Shown here in pieces: positions 48,609 through 57,245 of a DNA stretch of 64,000 nucleotides. The translations under genes and the position numbers were made by a program. The stretch lies in contig NZ_JACHWS010000001.1 in the NCBI RefSeq assembly GCF_014191505.1, positions 62,001 to 126,000 of the forward strand, given 5' to 3'. The notes under the pieces were generated by a model. The model was given only the letters and a program-made list of their open reading frames with translations, was not told the origin of the DNA and ran no database searches. Origin of the DNA: Hoyosella altamirensis (GTDB lineage Bacteria > Actinomycetota > Actinomycetes > Mycobacteriales > Mycobacteriaceae). Numbering within the stretch: the stretch's first letter is position 1; the number at the start of each line of letters is the position of its first letter.

Positions 48609-49775
48609 GTGCCGCTAAGGTCCGACGAGGACAGTCCAGCGGCGCTCGCCGGCTTCACGATTGGTATCACCGCTGCGCGCCGGGCTGAGGAGTTCGCCAC
48701 CCTCCTGAGCAGGCGGGGCGCAACTCTTGTGCACGCGCCAGCCATCCGGATCATCTCTCTCGTCGATGACACCGAGTTGCGTAAGGCGACTGAGTCGGTG
48801 ATCGCGTCCCCTCCGGATATCGCCGTGGCGACGACGGGAATCGGTTTCCGGGGCTGGGTTGAAGCTGCCGACAACTGGGGTCTCGCGGAGCCACTTCTCA
48901 GCGCGCTGACTTCGTCGAGGCTGTTGGCGCGCGGCCCAAAAGCCAAGGGTGCGATGCGCGCTGCGGGCCTGCGGGAGGAATGGTCTCCCGACTCGGAATC
49001 CTCTGCCGAGGTGCTGGACCACCTTCTTGAAGAAGGGGTCGAAGGCAAGCGGATCGCCGTGCAGCTTCACGGCGCAACCACAGAGTGGGAGCCGATTCCC
49101 GACTTTTGTGAGGTCATGCGCAGCGCTGGAGCGGAGGTAGTACCGGTTCCCGTATACCGCTGGGTCCCGCCGGACGATCGTTCTCAGCTCGACCGAATGA
49201 TCGAAATGTCGATCAACGGCGAACTCGACGCCATCACATTCACCAGTGCGCCGGCCGTCGCGTCGCTGCTCGGCCGGGCGAAGGAGACACGTGTGCTCGA
49301 GTCTCTGCTCAACGCGCTGCGAGGCCGTGTCGTCCCGTTCAGCGTGGGGCCGGTGACGGCCGCTCCGCTAGAGGCGCTCGGTGTCGCGACTACGCAACCG
49401 CATCGCGCTCGGCTGGGTGCCCTTGCTCGCCACATCGCGGAAGAGTTGCCTCGCAGGGCGAACCACCTGCAAGCTGGTGGGAGCCATTTGAGTATCAGGG
49501 GCAGCTGCATCGTCGTTGATAGGGAAGTGAAGCAGGTGCCGCCCGCATCGCTTTCGATCATGCGCGCGCTTGCGAGGCGTCCTGGTGCCGTCGTGTCGAG
49601 GGAGGATTTGCTGTCGGTCCTGCCTGGCGCGGGAGGTGACACGCATGCGGTGGAAACTGCGGTGGCCCGCTTGCGGGCGGCCCTTGGCACGCCAAAGGTT
49701 GTGCAAACAGTGGTGAAGCGCGGCTACCGGCTGGCGCTCGACCCCGTCGAGTCGGATCCGAAGGGAGACCGGTGA
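48609..49775 (+). CDS. HemD-like domain fused to a winged-helix DNA-binding domain
   Basis: A 388-residue fusion. The N-terminal two-thirds (about residues 15-265) has the uroporphyrinogen-III synthase layout: FTIGITAARRAEEFATLLSR, LHGATTEWEPIPDFCEVMRS, ITFTSAPAVASLLGRAKE and VPFSVGPVTAAPLEALGVAT. The C-terminal third carries an OmpR-type winged helix (REDLLSVLPGAGGDTHAVET, AVARLRAALGTPKVVQTVVK and a GYRLAL end) without a receiver domain. This is the Rv0260c architecture, found beside narK3 and the nir genes in M. tuberculosis. It could be a regulator that senses a tetrapyrrole or nitrite, rather than a simple enzyme. GTG 48609 follows AGGAGAGG; GTG 48579 and ATG 48588 are alternatives. Confidence 0.85.
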   Translation: MPLRSDEDSPAALAGFTIGITAARRAEEFATLLSRRGATLVHAPAIRIISLVDDTELRKATESVIASPPDIAVATTGIGFRGWVEAADNWGLAEPLLSALTSSRLLARGPKAKGAMRAAGLREEWSPDSESSAEVLDHLLEEGVEGKRIAVQLHGATTEWEPIPDFCEVMRSAGAEVVPVPVYRWVPPDDRSQLDRMIEMSINGELDAITFTSAPAVASLLGRAKETRVLESLLNALRGRVVPFSVGPVTAAPLEALGVATTQPHRARLGALARHIAEELPRRANHLQAGGSHLSIRGSCIVVDREVKQVPPASLSIMRALARRPGAVVSREDLLSVLPGAGGDTHAVETAVARLRAALGTPKVVQTVVKRGYRLALDPVESDPKGDR

Positions 49776-50485: not shown

Positions 50486-50791
50486 TCAGGCGCTGAAATC
50501 GTGCCTGTACTCAGCGACGCGAACCCGTCCATCAACGATGTGGACTCCCTCCCTGGCGAGCAATCCCGCCTGTTTGTCAGCGAGGTGTGCAGGGAGAATG
50601 CCGTCAGCTCGCACTACACGATGCCACGGGATATCGGCTCCGTCTGTCTTGAGAATCCAGCCGACGATACGTGCGGATGGAAGCCCAGCTGCAGTCGCAA
50701 TGTCTCCGTATGTGGCGACACATCCGGGAGCGATTCCGGACACGAGTTCACGCACGTGCTCCACAGTCTCGTCTGAGATCGCCGGAGTCAC
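50486..50791 (-). CDS. Alkyltransferase-like protein (ATL, MGMT fold)
   Basis: A 101-residue MGMT-family protein without alkyl-acceptor Cys. The PCHRVV motif reads PWHRVVRADG with Trp56 in place of Cys. The N-terminal VATYGDIATAAG and the helix-turn-helix around ARIVGWILKTD, with the Arg finger, remain. ATL proteins bind O6-alkylguanine and hand the lesion to nucleotide excision repair. This matches the Rv3204 position and the Atl1-like type. The start at 50791 overlaps the lipV stop by four bases (minus strand), indicating one operon lipV-atl. The assignment is firm because the Trp swap is direct. Confidence 0.9.
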   Translation of the reverse strand: MTPAISDETVEHVRELVSGIAPGCVATYGDIATAAGLPSARIVGWILKTDGADIPWHRVVRADGILPAHLADKQAGLLAREGVHIVDGRVRVAEYRHDFSA

Positions 50792-51639
50792 TGCTCTGCA
50801 CTCCTCGTGCCGCGGACATTGTCCCTTGCGTTGATGAGGGCATCTCTGACAATGCTGCCCACGAGGCCGGGGTCTTCTTGCGCCACCATATGGTCAGTTT
50901 CGGATTCGACTACCGTGAGCGCGGGGCCAAGATGATTTTCCAGCATGGCCCGAAACTCCGCAGTGACGAACGGTGGGGCCGATCTTTTCGCTACAACGAG
51001 GACAGTCGGAATATCTTTGGGCGGCAGAGCCGCGGGGCGAGCGAGTTCGCTGAACGTGGTGATCACTCCGGGCACTGAGATGCGCCAATTGACACGGCCA
51101 TTGGGCAGTACAACGAGGTGCTCGGCGAGTTCCCGTTCGAGTACATCAGGGTCGACGTCACGCCAGGCCCCGTTGACTTTGTCGCTGCGCGCTTCTTCTC
51201 TGTCGGTGTAATCCGGTGATGCCGTGGTGGCCTCCGCGAGACGTAACATCCAGGCCGGGTCGAGTTCGGCTGCGGGGTCAAGAAGTACCAGCCCGGCGAC
51301 GCGCTCAGGCATCGCGCGCGCCAAGTGGATCGCCAGGTTTCCGCCGAACGAGTGGCCAGCAAGGACCACACGATCGAGTTGGCCAAGAATCTGCTTAAGA
51401 TCGTCCACGTGTTTTTCGATCGTCCATGGTGGTTCCCACGTCGATCTGCCGTGGCCCCGCAGATCCGGGGCAATCACCTGGAACTCGGGAAAGTGCCTGC
51501 GTGCGAGGTCCTCCCAGCGCTGCCCGTGGCCGGTGAGCCCATGTAGCGCGAGAAGGGCGGGATCGCGCCGGCGCATATCGGTGGACGGTTCGGTGCATCC
51601 GAACCTGTGAACGTGCAGTTCTCTACTTAAATTCACCAT
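50788..51639 (-). CDS. lipV: Alpha/beta hydrolase (LipV-like)
   Basis: A 283-residue alpha/beta-hydrolase. The nucleophile elbow is AGHSFGGNLA, oxyanion region LALHGLTGHGQRW, acid region LVVAKRSAPPFVTAEFR, and the catalytic His is in SETDHMVAQEDP. The cap-like segment PERVAGLVLLDPAAELDP is present. M. tuberculosis LipV (Rv3203) is reported as an acid-active lipase/esterase; the true substrate here is not readable. ATG 51639 has GAGA five bases upstream on the minus strand. It is co-transcribed with the alkyltransferase-like gene. The upstream gap (51640-51829) separates it from the condensation-protein region. Confidence 0.87.
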   Translation of the reverse strand: MVNLSRELHVHRFGCTEPSTDMRRRDPALLALHGLTGHGQRWEDLARRHFPEFQVIAPDLRGHGRSTWEPPWTIEKHVDDLKQILGQLDRVVLAGHSFGGNLAIHLARAMPERVAGLVLLDPAAELDPAWMLRLAEATTASPDYTDREEARSDKVNGAWRDVDPDVLERELAEHLVVLPNGRVNWRISVPGVITTFSELARPAALPPKDIPTVLVVAKRSAPPFVTAEFRAMLENHLGPALTVVESETDHMVAQEDPGLVGSIVRDALINARDNVRGTRSAEQ

Positions 51640-51788
51640 AGTGATCTCGGCCTGTTAGCAGGTACAGTTAGCCCCACTGAGGGATGCAGCGACGGGGGTG
51701 CAGCGACTCTTTTCCTTCGGGCATGGGGAATTAACCCGGTTGAAATAGCAGGGACTGTACGCTGATCACACGTGGGTCACGCAATGCT

Positions 51789-51810
51789 AACCTTCGAGAT
51801 TACGAAGGTT
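51789..51810. promoter_or_regulatory. 8-bp inverted repeat before the condensation-protein region
   Basis: AACCTTCG (51789-51796) and CGAAGGTT (51803-51810) are exact inverted copies with a six-base spacer (AGATTA). They lie 19 bases before the small ORF at 51830, in the gap between lipV and the condensation protein. The symmetry suits a dimeric DNA-binding protein. The rest of the 51640-51829 gap has no other clear signal. Confidence 0.4.
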
Positions 51811-51829
51811 CGAGTGGAGTAGTTAAGCA

Positions 51830-52084
51830 ATGGGTCACAACGCCGGAAACAACGTGCGCCCGGTCTGCGGCGCGACGCAGGGGCGCGGGCTCTGGCTGCT
51901 CGATGGGACTGCAGCGTACGCGGCGCCCGCATCACTCTTCTCGGCCACGTCGGCCTTTTATCCTGCCACGGTGACGTCATCGGTGCGTGGCACCGTGTCG
52001 TTACACGATCACTGGCTCACTGTGATCGAGAACCCAGCTAGCTGCATCACTGGCAGCAGCGGACACAATGCAAGGAGCGCCTGA
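51830..52084 (+). CDS. Possible 84-residue protein of unknown function
   Basis: A short frame from ATG 51830, with GTGGAG at 51814-51819 ten bases upstream, ending two bases before the condensation protein ATG. The product begins MGHNAGNNVRPVCGATQGRG and contains HDHWLTVIENPASC; it has two Cys and no known domain. It may be a small partner protein, or merely the transcribed leader of the downstream gene. Coding support comes from the ribosome site and the tight junction only. Confidence 0.35.
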   Translation: MGHNAGNNVRPVCGATQGRGLWLLDGTAAYAAPASLFSATSAFYPATVTSSVRGTVSLHDHWLTVIENPASCITGSSGHNARSA

Positions 52085-52086
52085 AT

Positions 52087-53877
52087 ATGAGCGACGCACC
52101 AGACACCGTTGCCTCCGTGCCCGTAAGCAGCCAGGACAACGCGCATCCGAGGGCTCCCTGGAATGCCGGCCAGCGTCCCGCGCTATCGGGCCGTGAGCGA
52201 CCGGAGCGCATTCCGCTATCACTCGGTGAGCAGCGGCTATGGCTCATCAACAGGTTCGATCCCTACTCACCGGTTCACAACGTCCCCATTTCGGTTGAAC
52301 TGATCGGTGAGCTGGATGGCGCCTCGCTAACGGCAGCAGTACAGGATCTCATTGAGCGCCACGAGGTCTTGCGGACGATCTTCCCGGCATCCGCGGATGG
52401 GCCCTACCAGACGATCGTGCCCGCGTGTGAAATTACCGTTGACATGACGCCTGCGGACCTGGATTTTGCCGATGCTGAGGATCCGGCAGGGGCCATTCTC
52501 GCGTTCGCGAGAGAAGGCTTTGACCTGACTAGTGAGGTCCCTTTCCGTGCGCGCCTGTTCCGGATGGCAGACAGCGAATACATTCTGACGCTCGTCGTGC
52601 ATCACATAGCCGCGGATCGGGCATCCCTGCGTCACCTCTTGAGGGATCTCTTTCAGGCGTACGAGTCTCGCTGTTCAGGCGCCGCCCCAGACTGGTCGGC
52701 GCTTCCTCTGCAGTACGCGGATTATGCGCTGTGGCAGCGCGAGCTACTCGGCGAGGAATCCGACCCAGAGAGTGTGATCGCGCGTGAGATCGAGTTCTGG
52801 CGGGCAGAACTCGACGGATTACCGGATGTGCTGAATCTGCCGCTGGACCGGCCCCGCCCAGCCTTCCAGTCGCTGTGCGGGAAGGCTGTGGACTTCTACC
52901 TCGGTCCACAAGTTCACGCAAGCCTGAAGAGCATTGCTGAGCGGTACAACGTGCCAGCGTTCACGGTCCTTCAATCAGCGTTCGCCGTTCTGCTCTTCAA
53001 GTTGTGCGGCTCCGACGATATTGTGCTCGGCACGCCAGTGGACAAGCGGGCTGATGACTCGCTCGATCCAATCGTCGGAATGTTTGGCAACACGCTGGCG
53101 CTGCGACACCGCGTCATCGAGTCTGAGCGCTTCTGTGACCTGCTCACGCGGTCACGTGAGCGCAGTGTCGAAGCCTTCAGCCACGCCGAGACTCCGTTCG
53201 AGCGACTCGTGGAGGTTCTCGGCATCCCGCGCTCTCCGTCCTTCCATCCGGTGTTCCAGGTAATGATCTCGCTCCACGACGAGGAGCAGCAGATGACCTC
53301 CATCGCTGGCCTCGATGTGGCAATCGGTGGGCTGGAGGCCAAAGCCGCCGACTGCGACCTTGAGCTCGTCCTGACCGAGAGTTTCGGCCATGAGGGTGAG
53401 CCAGCCGGAATCACCGGGTCGATGGTGTATGCGGTGGAATTGTTCGACGAGGCGACGATTGTCGGAATCGTGCAACGGTTCCAGCGTCTGCTGACAGCGA
53501 TCGGGGCGCACGCGGAGTTGCCGGTCAGCGACATCGATGTGCTGACTGATCGGGAGCGGGGGCTCTTGCTGCCGCATCGCAAATCGCGCAGCTCGCTCGA
53601 CCGCTTGGTTGGCTACGCGGCGAGCCACGGGACGGCGCTCTTGCCAGGGACAGAGGGTGGTTACGCGGAGCTCGCGGGACGCGTCGGTCAAGTCGCGTCC
53701 CGAGCGACTGGTTCGACGCTCGGGGCCGGCAGCGACCTCGCCCTCGCCCTGCTCACCTATGCGGCCGGAAAGATGGACGTCACGGCGGCGCAGCGGCTCG
53801 CAGACACAGTGCTGCCAACGCTCGACAAAGCCGCGCAGAATCGGCCTCCGCGCGACACCCGCGAGCTGAGCGCGTAA
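52087..53877 (+). CDS. Stand-alone NRPS-type condensation domain with degenerate adenylation stub
   Basis: A 596-residue protein with all seven condensation motifs in order. C1 is SLGEQRLWLI, C2 RHEVLRTIF, C3 VVHHIAADRASL with His172-His173 and Asp177, C4 YADYALWQREL, C5 IVGMFGNTLALR, C6 HAETPFERLVEVL and C7 FHPVFQVMISL. The C3 Gly is Arg178. After about residue 490 the tail LTDRERGLLLP, then YAELAGRVGQVASRAT and LALALLTYAAGK, looks like the start of an adenylation domain cut short; no A-domain core motif (such as the AMP-binding TSG motif) follows. No PCP or thioesterase is encoded nearby. AAGGAG (52072-52077) is nine bases before ATG 52087. It may condense amine or alcohol with a carrier-bound acyl group, but partners are missing here. 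Confidence 0.85.
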   Translation: MSDAPDTVASVPVSSQDNAHPRAPWNAGQRPALSGRERPERIPLSLGEQRLWLINRFDPYSPVHNVPISVELIGELDGASLTAAVQDLIERHEVLRTIFPASADGPYQTIVPACEITVDMTPADLDFADAEDPAGAILAFAREGFDLTSEVPFRARLFRMADSEYILTLVVHHIAADRASLRHLLRDLFQAYESRCSGAAPDWSALPLQYADYALWQRELLGEESDPESVIAREIEFWRAELDGLPDVLNLPLDRPRPAFQSLCGKAVDFYLGPQVHASLKSIAERYNVPAFTVLQSAFAVLLFKLCGSDDIVLGTPVDKRADDSLDPIVGMFGNTLALRHRVIESERFCDLLTRSRERSVEAFSHAETPFERLVEVLGIPRSPSFHPVFQVMISLHDEEQQMTSIAGLDVAIGGLEAKAADCDLELVLTESFGHEGEPAGITGSMVYAVELFDEATIVGIVQRFQRLLTAIGAHAELPVSDIDVLTDRERGLLLPHRKSRSSLDRLVGYAASHGTALLPGTEGGYAELAGRVGQVASRATGSTLGAGSDLALALLTYAAGKMDVTAAQRLADTVLPTLDKAAQNRPPRDTRELSA

Positions 53878-53909
53878 ATCTGTCAGACCTTCGTGATGTC
53901 ATGTAGCGC

Positions 53910-56900
53910 ATGACGGCACGGCGGGGGCTGACGGATGACGTCAGAGTCAGGTTAGTTGGCGCAGAAGCGCCAAAGCAGCGTGTCCGGACGTGGTCGGGCG
54001 CGGCGGCGTCGCTCCTTGACCGTGTTGCGAGTGGGGACGTTCCACGTGCCACGTCGTCGAATCCGGTTCCGTCCGGGTGGGCTCCTGTGCAGCTTCTCGG
54101 TGGCCCCGGCACTGGGAAGACCGCCTACATCGCTGACCTGGCTGTGGCGATGATGGCGGCGGGGGTGGATCCCGAATCGATTCTTGTGCTGACGCACTCA
54201 CGTGCAGCCTCTACGTCTATGCGGGAAGTCATCACCTCTGCGCTGCTGGCAGAGGGAGGTAACGCACCGCAAGCCACGCGCGAACCACTGGTGCGAACGG
54301 TGCACTCGTACGCGTTTGCCGTCCTGCGGCTGCAGGCCGCGCAGTACGGAAATCCGCCGCCTCGCCTCATCACCAGTTCTGAACAGGACGCTGTGTTCAG
54401 GGAGATGCTCCGCGGTGACATCGAAGATGGTGCCGACTACTGGCCGGCAGAGTTACGTCCCGCACTGGGCCTGGCTGGGTTCGCGTCCGAACTTCGGGGT
54501 CTCCTCCGGCGCTCCGCAGAGCGGGGGCTAGGGCCGGAGGATCTTGTGAAGCTAGGCCGGAAACACCGCAAGGCGGAGTGGGTCGCGGCGGGCCGGTTCG
54601 CCGCAGTTTACGAACAAAGCACGCTTCTCCGGGGGTCCGTCGGTATGGAGGTCCCGCAGGCCACGGCACCCGCACTCGATGCGGCTGAGCTCGTGAGTTC
54701 GGCGGTGACCGCGCTGTCAATCGATCCAGATCTGCTTCAGCGTGAACGCCAGCGCGTACGTTTTCTTCTGGTTGACGATGCTCAGCATCTCGACCCTCAG
54801 GCTGCCTGGCTCATCGAACTGCTGGGAACAGGGACTGACCTCACTGTGATAGCTGGGGATAGCGACCAGTCGGTCTTCCGTTTCCGGGGTGCTGAGCCGG
54901 CGTTCCTCGAGCAGTTGGCGGACAATGAAACGGCTGCACGGATCGTTTTCGAAGAGAATCACCGGAGTGCCCCCGAAATCGTCGGTGCAGTGGCGCGGGT
55001 GGCAGCGAAGCTCCCAGGCATGCAGCCGCAGCGCAAGGCGTTCACTGTCAGCCCAGCAACGGGGACTGGCCGTGCGCTGGTGCGCGTACTCAGCACGCCG
55101 GCACGGGAAGCGGCGGCCGTCGCCGACACACTTCGCCGCGCACACCTCCACGACGGAGTCCCCTGGTCGAGGATGGCGGTGATTGTCCGCTCGGTTCCGC
55201 AGCTTTCAGCTCCGCTGCGGCGAGCCCTGCTGGCTGCGGGAGTGCCGGTCAACACCCCGGTCCCGGAACTGCCGCTCGGGAGGCAGCGGGCGTCGAGGTC
55301 TCTGCTGCTCGTCCTGAAAGCGGTAGCGGGGCCACCTGACCAGAATTCGAGTCTGACAGCGGAGGAAGTACTGGAGCTTTTGGCCGGCCCGATCGGTGGT
55401 GCAGACCCACTGACACTGCGGCGTATGCGCCGCGGAATCCGGCGCGCTGAGGTTGCCCGCGGCGGTGACCGGGAGTCGGCAGAAGTTCTGACGCGGCTGA
55501 TCTGTTCGCCCGAGACGTCCGCTGACTCCGGAATCCTGGGTGCGCTGACGCCAGTGGAAGCCGCACCAATCGAGCGGCTGAGGAAGGTGCTCCGCCGTGC
55601 ACGAAAGGTCCGGGAACGGCATCGCGGCCTCGAAGAGGTGCTCTGGGAGGTGTGGCGCGCTGCGGGACGCGAACGGCAGTGGGTGCGGCAAGCCCTGCGT
55701 GGTGGTCCCGCAGGCGTGCAAGCGGACCGTGATCTCGACGCCGTGGTGGCGTTGTTTGACGCCGCGGCCAACTATGTAGACCGGCTGCCCGCCGCGTCGA
55801 TCGCGGGGTTCGCCGATTACATCTCTCATCAGGAGCTCCCAGCTGAGCCGGTGGTCGGCAAGGTTACACACGCCGATTCAGTCACTCTGCTGAGTGCGCA
55901 CGCGGCGGCGGGTAACGAGTGGGATGTCGTCGCGGTCGCTGGTGTCCAGGAAGGCGTGTGGCCGTCTCTGCGTGGCCGGGGAAGTGTGCTCAACGCTGGG
56001 GATATCGACGATGTGCTGCGGCGAGACATGACGGGGGAGTCGGCGACGCCCGTTTCCCGGCTCGCGCCGCTGCTCGCGGATGAGCGCAAGCTATTTCTCG
56101 TCGCTTGTTCGCGCGCACGCCGACAGCTCCTCGTGACCGCCGCGCAGTCGGTATCTGGCCAGTCAGAGCTCGTACCCTCGCGATTTATCGGCGAACTTGG
56201 TCTGGATGCCACCGCGGGACAGGAAGACGACCCGCGGTCCGAGCGCGGTGAGGAGCCAGAAACAGTGCTCGCGCTGCCAGCGCTCGTCGCGAAGCTCCGC
56301 GCTGTGGTGTGTTCGCCGTGCGAGCCCGAAGGGCGGAAGGCTGACGCTGCCGTCCAGCTCGGCCGTCTGGCGGAAGCGGGTGTCCCGGGCGCGCATCCGC
56401 AAGAGTGGTACGGGCTGCGCCCCATCACAACTGATCGCGCGATGTGGGCCGCCGAAGACGGCCCGGTCCGCATGTCGCCTTCGACAGTGGATCAGCTTTC
56501 AAAATGTCCACTTAGGTGGCTTCTGGAACGTCACGGCGGCTCAGATGGCAACGACACAAGTGCGGTCAAGGGAGTGCTCGTTCACACGCTCACGCAGGCG
56601 ATTGCGGGAAACATCTCCGATGCGCAGGTGCGCGAGGCGCTCGTTCAGGCCTGGGACAAAGTGGATCTAGGGTCCCCGTGGTACGCGCGGCATGAGCGTG
56701 CACGGATCGAGAACATGCTCTCGCACTTCGAAGAGTGGTTGCGAAGTTCGCGCACCGAGCTGACTGAGGCGGGCGTCGAGGTCGCGGTCGACGGTGTGCT
56801 GGCCGACCCGTCCGGGGAAGGCCCCGACGTTCGGTTGCGCGGGCGGATTGACCGGCTCGAACATGACAACGAGGGGCGGCCCGTGATTGTGGACGTGAAG

Positions 56901-57245
56901 ACGGCACGTACCCCAGTGAGTGCAACTGCCGCTCTTGACCACGCTCAATTAGCTACGTATCAAGTTGCGGCGGCATCCGGCTTGATCGACGGGGAGCCTG
57001 CGACCGAGCCCGGCGGCGCGCGGCTCGTGTTCGTCGCGAAGCCGCACAAAAACACCGGTGCCGCCGAGCGGAGTCAGCCAGCACTGACCCCGGAACAGGT
57101 TCAGCACTGGATTACGCTGATTCGCGACGCTGCGAAGGCAACCCGGGGACCGTCATTCGAGGCTCGTATCAATGACGGCTGTAGCCACTGTCCCGTTCGC
57201 TCCAGCTGCCCCGCCCAGGATGTGGGAAGGCAGGTGACCCAATAA
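53910..57245 (+). CDS. adnA: AdnA, UvrD-like helicase/nuclease subunit with 4Fe-4S motif
   Basis: A 1111-residue subunit of the mycobacterial AdnAB end-resection motor. Helicase motifs: I GGPGTGKTAYI (near residue 70), II VDDAQHLDPQ, III GDSDQSVFRFRGAEPAF, IV EENHRSAP and V/VI TLLSAHAAAGNEWDVVAVAG and FLVACSRARRQL. The C-terminal RecB-type nuclease (from about residue 970) has GRIDRLEHDN, VDVKTART and QLATYQVAA. A Cys cluster C866, C1091, C1094 and C1100 (CPLRWLL; CSHCPVRSSC) should hold 4Fe-4S. In studied mycobacteria AdnA is the non-leading motor but its nuclease cuts. The start ATG 53910 lacks a strong ribosome site and could lie elsewhere. adnB overlaps its stop. Confidence 0.93.
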   Translation: MTARRGLTDDVRVRLVGAEAPKQRVRTWSGAAASLLDRVASGDVPRATSSNPVPSGWAPVQLLGGPGTGKTAYIADLAVAMMAAGVDPESILVLTHSRAASTSMREVITSALLAEGGNAPQATREPLVRTVHSYAFAVLRLQAAQYGNPPPRLITSSEQDAVFREMLRGDIEDGADYWPAELRPALGLAGFASELRGLLRRSAERGLGPEDLVKLGRKHRKAEWVAAGRFAAVYEQSTLLRGSVGMEVPQATAPALDAAELVSSAVTALSIDPDLLQRERQRVRFLLVDDAQHLDPQAAWLIELLGTGTDLTVIAGDSDQSVFRFRGAEPAFLEQLADNETAARIVFEENHRSAPEIVGAVARVAAKLPGMQPQRKAFTVSPATGTGRALVRVLSTPAREAAAVADTLRRAHLHDGVPWSRMAVIVRSVPQLSAPLRRALLAAGVPVNTPVPELPLGRQRASRSLLLVLKAVAGPPDQNSSLTAEEVLELLAGPIGGADPLTLRRMRRGIRRAEVARGGDRESAEVLTRLICSPETSADSGILGALTPVEAAPIERLRKVLRRARKVRERHRGLEEVLWEVWRAAGRERQWVRQALRGGPAGVQADRDLDAVVALFDAAANYVDRLPAASIAGFADYISHQELPAEPVVGKVTHADSVTLLSAHAAAGNEWDVVAVAGVQEGVWPSLRGRGSVLNAGDIDDVLRRDMTGESATPVSRLAPLLADERKLFLVACSRARRQLLVTAAQSVSGQSELVPSRFIGELGLDATAGQEDDPRSERGEEPETVLALPALVAKLRAVVCSPCEPEGRKADAAVQLGRLAEAGVPGAHPQEWYGLRPITTDRAMWAAEDGPVRMSPSTVDQLSKCPLRWLLERHGGSDGNDTSAVKGVLVHTLTQAIAGNISDAQVREALVQAWDKVDLGSPWYARHERARIENMLSHFEEWLRSSRTELTEAGVEVAVDGVLADPSGEGPDVRLRGRIDRLEHDNEGRPVIVDVKTARTPVSATAALDHAQLATYQVAAASGLIDGEPATEPGGARLVFVAKPHKNTGAAERSQPALTPEQVQHWITLIRDAAKATRGPSFEARINDGCSHCPVRSSCPAQDVGRQVTQ

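Follow-up and report, generated by a model that had tools for sequence, protein, structure and literature searches.

What is a single condensation (C) domain doing between two genes that are neighbours in other genomes, with no peptide assembly line around it? The question is raised by a gene of Hoyosella altamirensis, referred to below as the orphan, in a stretch of 64,000 nucleotides that was analyzed as a whole (the window; G000:C1:62001-126000, in a genome of 4.76 Mb). The orphan lies between genes that we take, following a preliminary description of the stretch, to be lipV and adnA. A single intact frame codes for the orphan protein, and Condensation (PF00668) was the only Pfam family matched, with 279.2 bits (cut-off 30.6) over profile columns 5-455 of 456. 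In a module of a nonribosomal peptide synthetase (NRPS) the C domain is followed by an adenylation (A) and a carrier (T) domain; neither the orphan protein nor the window had an AMP-binding or PP-binding match. Genome-wide profile searches placed no other match to PF00668 or PF00550 in the window at E <= 0.001, and none to PF00501 at E <= 1e-20. This agrees with the preliminary claim that no A or carrier gene is near. A thioesterase gene had also been said to be absent; here the lipV-like protein was found to match Pfam Thioesterase marginally (27.3 bits, cut-off 26.4), under better alpha/beta-hydrolase matches. Our tentative answer, to which we give a probability of about 0.4, is that the orphan may be a catalytically competent, stand-alone C enzyme of LCL type which acts in trans in partnership with a giant NRPS of the same genome.

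The tail of the orphan protein ties it to this NRPS. The tail is present and conserved in every orthologue aligned, and its motif LALALLTYAAGKMD..AQRLAD recurs in the NRPS between the C and A domains of module 3. When profiles were compared one pair at a time with hhalign, the orphan tail matched the module-3 insert with P 97.9 and E 6.2e-13 over 109 columns, the first ~18 of which are live C-domain end. With both sides trimmed the match was retained (P 96.4, E 1.4e-9, 66 columns, residues ~521-594; reversed control P 0.11), residues 500-520 no longer being alignable to the insert once the live C-domain end was removed. On its own the tail gave no Pfam match, AMP-binding included, at E up to 5. 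Compared directly with A-domain starts it was not significant (P 0.42 untrimmed, P 0.39 trimmed), and orphan tail rows scored at most 6.0 bits against a profile of C-domain ends (shuffle maximum 5.2). The A-domain and C-end ancestry of the tail shows only through the module-3 insert.

The NRPS of the window genome has nine modules in two frames. The first protein (C2:315976-336255, minus strand, 6760 aa) holds five complete modules and a sixth made up of C and a degraded A, while the second (C2:302212-315903, minus strand, 4564 aa) holds an intact A6 and modules 7-9. In Lolliginicoccus suaedae (G087) all nine modules lie in one frame of 11190 aa. The distance from C to A was 133-149 residues in module 3 and 18-36 elsewhere in the four genomes read. 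Once trimmed, the insert resembled the starts of A domains over 60 columns (P 95.8, E 7.7e-9; P 0.12 in the reversed control), and inserts reached E 0.0034 (16.7 bits) and E 0.12 (11.6 bits) against PF00501, below its cut-off of 29.9. In their second half, insert and tail look like a C-domain end, tYAtDLFDeaT....Rf..vL.av..dp...Vgdi. A profile of 64 C-domain ends scored 27.1, 21.1, 18.8, 14.2, and 9.1 bits against five inserts, the best of 600 shuffles reaching 5.2, and inserts and orphan tails together matched C ends with P 90.7 and E 1.3e-6 (reversed control P 0.3). The hairpin gave nothing against A, T, or epimerization (E) domain profiles and P 16.8 with E 0.0015 against five C sequences. 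Counts of tails, C ends, and motifs cover distinct domains of at least 290 bits and 330 profile columns, and L003, L004, and L046 were left out as copies of loci already present. The L. levis module modelled with AlphaFold2 shows, at low confidence (local pLDDT ~31-65), helix-strand-strand-helix in the front part of the insert, the same order as in the true A start, followed by helices.

The insert therefore reads as a probable module-deletion scar, a worn A-domain start fused to a worn C-domain end, as expected if a deletion began within one A domain and ended close to the C-terminal boundary of the C domain that follows. No relative with the undeleted module was met, and no search was aimed at one. 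Among 201 family genomes the insert was found in the seven that carry the orphan, in NRPS frames of 6743-11190 aa; an eighth match, in G219 (E 5e-6), covered the A-start part only.

The A3 core is broken in the degraded A that ends the 6760-aa frame; the frame after it opens with an intact A of similar sequence. The first NRPS protein ends likewise in a degraded A in G103 and G022, and the single frame of L. suaedae has one intact A at this place. Possibly a worn A domain is kept at the break between NRPS subunits.

The shared tail suggests the following origin. In the ancestor shared by Hoyosella and Lolliginicoccus, the giant NRPS would have lost most of one module by internal deletion, which left the third C domain, the scar of A start and C end, and an A domain in series. 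A copy of the third C domain with its scar would have been placed between lipV and adnA as a gene of its own before the two genera parted, ending where the scar ends and before any A domain. That the orphan arose as such a copy is most likely, and supported rather than proven; it is the simplest account, since the scar is sensible only in an assembly line and the orphan ends at the scar end. We infer that copying went from the NRPS to the orphan, and the reverse direction could also have been taken. In a tree of C domains the grouping of the orphan with module 3 was not rejected (p value of the approximately unbiased test, p-AU, 0.51; cost 0.04 log units), while p-AU was 0.035 for the orphan with module 4, 0.013 with module 5, 0.053 with module 8, and 0.072 with module 7. 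The tree relied on here was a careful one of 38 rows, without modules 1 and 2 and all but a few relatives; a first, quick tree of 75 rows, built from domains of at least 200 bits, left forks open.

If the C domain and scar were copied together, the wear of the orphan tail was inherited. The preliminary description took the last ~100 residues to resemble the opening of an A domain and considered decay of an NRPS to a working C domain. An A-domain ancestry stands, by way of the NRPS insert, while the last ~45 residues resemble a C-domain end. Derivation from the C-A part of an NRPS stands as well; decay in place is unsupported, because residues ~521-594 are homologous to an insert in an NRPS elsewhere in the genome, so that the parent probably had the worn A start already. 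That description was thus largely right in what it observed and half right on the A-domain origin, the wear being most likely inherited from the NRPS scar.

The orphan is confined to few genomes. Orthologues at E <= 1e-140, a threshold that would miss more divergent orphans, were found in 7 of 401 family genomes, namely all three Hoyosella and four members of a second genus (Lolliginicoccus/H. rhizosphaerae), apparently L. levis, L. lacisalsi, L. suaedae, and H. rhizosphaerae. An order-level draw of 397 genomes, overlapping in members with the family draw, gave four, all from these two genera. The orphan was found directly upstream of adnA in all seven loci read. The order cbiX-(lipV)-orphan-adnA-adnB is alike in five named loci, and in G002 the adjacency to adnA was read from coordinates. 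No lipV match was found between cbiX and the orphan in three Lolliginicoccus loci (L022, L023, and L025), where the adjacency of orphan and adnA is kept, and in G022 lipV had no match genome-wide at E <= 1e-20. Among 61 genomes searched, 25 others had both genes on one contig, and in all 25 lipV and adnA were divergent neighbours 65-1468 bp apart; two further genomes with lipV had adnA on a different contig or no adnA match. A gap of ~2.27 kb is seen only in the three Hoyosella, where the orphan fills it, which bears out the earlier remark that the gene interrupts the lipV-adnA order.

The orphan is kept under strong purifying selection and is not a decaying relic. Between the window and the nearest Hoyosella (G002) the ratio of nonsynonymous to synonymous substitution (dN/dS) was 0.022 for the C core and 0.019 for the tail (residues 497-596). 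For the C core it was 0.14-0.19 among Lolliginicoccus and 0.03-0.19 in wider pairs, whose synonymous sites approach saturation (0.02-0.19 over nine pairs overall). Within the tail, residues 497-548 are variable (proportion of nonsynonymous differences, pN, 0.51 for the window against L. lacisalsi), whereas residues 549-574 vary less than the C core (pN 0.105 versus 0.252 for the same pair). The ATG start is supported by the N-terminus M[SND]DAP, which is common to the orthologues; relative to the ATG of the window the aligned N-terminus lies one residue later in L023 and two residues earlier in L025.

The active site points to a working enzyme with a changed acceptor side. His172, His173, Asp177, and Arg178 are invariant in the seven orthologues aligned, all of which read HHxxxDR, as the preliminary description had noted for the histidines and the arginine of the window gene. 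Relative to HHxxxDG of LCL domains, the histidines and Asp are present and Gly is replaced by Arg in all seven. The set has 65 distinct C domains other than the orphans; the motif is HHxxxDG in 63 of them, QHxxxDG in one, and HHxxxDR in one. Motifs were compared over orphan residues 39-496 in six orphan and 24 NRPS rows. Gln48 to Glu (C1), Gly178 to Arg (C3), and His296 to Gln were fixed in the six orphan rows, the original residue being present in 24 of 24 NRPS rows; Val334 to Gly in C5 (Val in 96% of NRPS rows) and Asp368 to Glu in C6 (Asp in 88%) were also found. In total the orphan has nine fixed changes at positions 88-100% conserved across the NRPS rows, and at 35 orphan-invariant positions it carries a residue present in at most 10% of them. 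The seven motifs, earlier called intact, are so with respect to HH and Asp177 and altered at these five positions. The change at 296 is not unusual in itself, since Gln is also found at the equivalent position of DhbF and FscG.

Arg50 of the orphan, invariant in the orthologues, corresponds to the gate Arg2577 of FscG in an alignment matched by hand count. Passages of two papers describe R2577 as gating the acceptor channel (PMC8097023, PMC11546977), and in the former E2702, which corresponds to orphan position 178, is said to contact the acceptor amine, its mutation shifting acceptor preference. As the catalytic residues and the gate Arg50 are kept and position 178 is altered, the orphan is probably an active enzyme whose acceptor end is modified, and the motifs retained make a working C domain likely.

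With phmmer the orphan ranked closest to LCL-like NRPS domains (294-438 bits), DCL-like domains scoring 54-85 and starter-like domains 30-59 bits; three domains of L035 and one ownC2c domain scored 189-222 bits. The assignment as LCL is that of the phmmer ranking, with types read from the place in the assembly line and the motif, and the trees contain no starter or DCL outgroup. An AlphaFold2 model (30 rows) gave a C fold with blocks of ten residues mostly at pLDDT 80-96, the lowest at 66. The top Foldseek match was DhbF 5u89 (query TM-score, TMq, 0.73), followed by the teicoplanin X domain (4tx3, 4tx2) and the PCP-C didomains 8fx6 and 7kvw.

From these features we infer catalysis, partner, acceptor type, and the role of the tail as follows. 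The donor would be a carrier-bound acyl or peptidyl thioester, the carrier most likely belonging to the giant NRPS. With His173 in its active site, the orphan would condense this donor with an acceptor that does not come from an A-T pair of its own. Arg178, in place of Gly beside the acceptor amine site, would together with Glu48 and Gly334 re-tune the acceptor end, plausibly in favour of acceptors that are diffusible or anionic. The tail, helical and conserved, would be retained as a docking or structural element. The NRPS itself probably makes a lipopeptide, since it begins with a starter-like C domain. A stand-alone C enzyme has a precedent in the free-standing OaaC, reported as active in part of a preprint (PMC13142362).

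Several observations weigh against this proposal and the origin on which it builds. Grouping of the orphan with module 6 (p-AU 0.30) or with the C4 modules of a second NRPS (0.195) was not rejected either; the tree of C domains gives no positive support for uniting the orphan with module 3, and their grouping was named after the shared tail had already been seen. The co-occurrence of insert and orphan in seven of seven genomes may be one event, because all seven belong to one clade. The orphan gene is far from every NRPS gene found in the genome. All 17 own NRPS C domains ranked keep HHxxxD (the genome has 27 Pfam Condensation matches, E domains included), so no broken NRPS step among these calls for help in trans, and trans-complementation of a broken C domain was rejected on the same inspection. 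The only other HHxxxDR domain met (L006, G023:C13:4310-5929, from another genus) sits in an ordinary-looking NRPS module whose A-domain code shows no acid specificity, as read by eye against known codes in this single case. The tail is helical in the AlphaFold2 model with pLDDT of only 27-57 in blocks of ten residues, its dN/dS as a whole reaches 0.40 (window against L. lacisalsi), and constraint is weak over residues 1-38 (dN/dS 0.21-1.12 in nine pairs).

The conserved stretch of the tail bears on the alternative that survives best, although we regard it as unlikely. The orphan could be a C-fold platform which, as X domains do, recruits enzymes to NRPS-bound intermediates, condensation being lost or secondary. 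The closest precedent is glycopeptide X*, which parts of PMC1894796 assign to the LCL subtree and, for complestatin, describe as followed by A remnants. The Foldseek matches at ranks 2 and 3 are X-domain structures, and between the two genera residues 549-574 of the tail have changed less than the C core. However, X-domain structures rank among general C domains, hence the likeness is one of fold only, the orphan is a separate gene and not the end of an NRPS, and a pure platform has no need of the invariant histidines and Asp.

PapA proteins transfer acyl groups to lipid or sugar hydroxyls. The preliminary description considered that a C domain had been recruited, as PapA proteins were, for an acyl transfer in the lipid envelope. 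The acyl groups would then be taken from a fatty-acid carrier or CoA, outside NRPS chemistry; this appears slightly less likely than a platform. It could account for Arg178, which would be unusual for an amine acceptor, and for a weak match to PapA5 (E 0.002), and the host group is mycolic-acid-bearing to judge from the title of a work cited in PMC5550956. Yet the PapA5 NCBIfam model gave 17.1 bits against a cut-off of 396, and the phmmer ranking sets the orphan with LCL-like NRPS domains. The only adjoining gene with a possible lipid function is the lipV-like hydrolase, which is unmatched in three Lolliginicoccus loci; the recruitment gained no positive support, as nothing found links the gene to envelope lipids.

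Less probable again is a free-standing amide synthase of OaaC type, which would join an acyl group from a carrier to a small diffusible amine independently of the giant NRPS. The residue after Asp in such FAA enzymes is Ser in 42%, Ala in 36%, and Gly in 17%, and the two arginines on the acceptor side of the orphan could hold a free acid group. As far as sections of the preprint tell, however, FAA enzymes are nearest to starter domains and have A and carrier proteins in their own cluster (PMC13142362), while the orphan is LCL-like and has no A or carrier gene in the window.

A decaying pseudogene or assembly artefact, suggested by the worn look of the tail and the lack of A and T domains in the protein, can be dismissed in view of the dN/dS values above and of seven open orthologues with equal ends, conserved synteny, and invariant active site; the assembly frameshift named earlier as a possible refutation is unsupported because the orthologues stop equivalently and 32 bp separate the stop from adnA. 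As to the other refutation named, a tail without AMP-binding match in a family whose close homologues end before it, the tail alone had no Pfam match, yet every aligned orthologue has the tail.

A more specific form of the proposed partnership between orphan and giant NRPS is a long shot, rated below each of the alternatives but the last. The orphan tail and the module-3 scar, as two copies of one helical hairpin left by the module deletion, might form a matched docking pair that brings the orphan to module 3 of the assembly line, where it would condense the growing peptide or divert it. If so, a deletion scar would have turned into a docking domain, a new way for such elements to arise and one relevant to the engineering of these enzymes. 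More generally, an apparent module-deletion scar that is readable in an NRPS also marks a separate gene as its likely offspring, selected in two genera. The orphan makes it possible to test how one domain can depart from an assembly line and remain of use, and it is a natural model of C domains that function in the absence of their own A and carrier domains.

Features of the orphan locus and of the giant NRPS (window positions unless given as genome:contig)
Feature	Position	Strand	Details and basis
Orphan condensation gene	52087..53877	+	596 aa, ATG start, TAA stop
C domain, LCL-like	52210..53568	+	Residues 42-494; PF00668, AlphaFold2, Foldseek
C3 motif HHIAADR	52600..52620	+	His172, His173, Asp177, Arg178 (usually Gly); alignment of 7 orthologues
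Putative worn adenylation-domain start	53647..53751	+	Residues ~521-555, variable; trimmed hhalign against the insert
Putative worn C-domain end	53737..53874	+	Residues ~551-596; helical hairpin LALALLTYAAGKMD..AQRLAD and C-terminal RE(L/I)(S/T)A
lipV-like alpha/beta hydrolase	50788..51639	-	Divergent neighbour; Pfam alpha/beta-hydrolase matches
adnA-like helicase-nuclease	53910..57245	+	UvrD and PD-(D/E)XK domains; 32 bp after the orphan stop
Upstream conserved block, probable regulatory region	51731..51830	+	Between lipV and orphan; Hoyosella
Module-3 insert, probable module-deletion scar	G000:C2:326707-327078; L048-L054	-	Between C and A

Upstream of the orphan a conserved block (CTGATCACACGTGGGTCACGCAATGCTAACC) is identical in the three Hoyosella and weaker in H. 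rhizosphaerae, with local scores of 133 against L021 (top of 100 shuffles 29) and 51 against L024 (top 33). It did not exceed the best shuffle in three Lolliginicoccus loci or in the lipV-adnA stretches of 11 other genomes. It is a probable regulatory region. No iron box was matched within the window. LexA boxes with at most two mismatches numbered nine in the window (4.1 expected), the nearest at 49189 and none at the orphan gene. A scan of 51600-54000 gave no sigma-70-type promoter and two terminator-like sites (1.2 expected).

A second stand-alone protein of the C family, a 464-aa frame with the motif HHLVADP, is encoded far from the window at C1:904077-905321. In the literature no description of the orphan gene was found among the matches listed. 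Parts of papers on the A. subflavus genome and on rhodococcal gene clusters mention NRPSs, and in the latter also lipopeptides; the orphan gene is not mentioned in those parts.

One system close to the orphan is the LCL domain of NRPS module 3, which has the same scar after C in the same genomes; it has HHxxxDG and continues into A and T, whereas the orphan stops after the scar. PapA acyltransferases are stand-alone proteins of the C superfamily in related bacteria, and differ from the orphan in the PapA5 score and phmmer ranking given above. X domains have a degenerate active-site motif and are fused within an NRPS; the orphan has an intact HH and is a separate gene, and it combines a C fold with an A remnant only by way of the NRPS insert. 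Like X* of complestatin, as described in parts of PMC1894796, the orphan is an LCL-derived C fold from a module cut after C, with A remnants. It differs from X* in keeping HH and Asp and in a tail that also has a C-domain end shared with an NRPS scar, and from the X domain, which recruits P450s from within the NRPS (passages of PMC8949500), in being a gene of its own. FAA enzymes such as OaaC are likewise free-standing, with a residue after Asp that is usually not Gly, but in the sections available they are starter-like and clustered with A and acyl carrier protein (ACP) genes (PMC13142362). The orphan is LCL-like and isolated, with HHxxxDR where they have (D/H)HxxxDS and no A or ACP gene in the window. 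The C3 domain of FscG (HHxxxDE), according to the portion cited of PMC8097023, also has a variant residue at the Gly position and keeps the gate Arg; it has Glu and is embedded in an NRPS, while the orphan has Arg and is a separate gene. Seen against these systems, the scar shared with the NRPS is what is unusual in the orphan.

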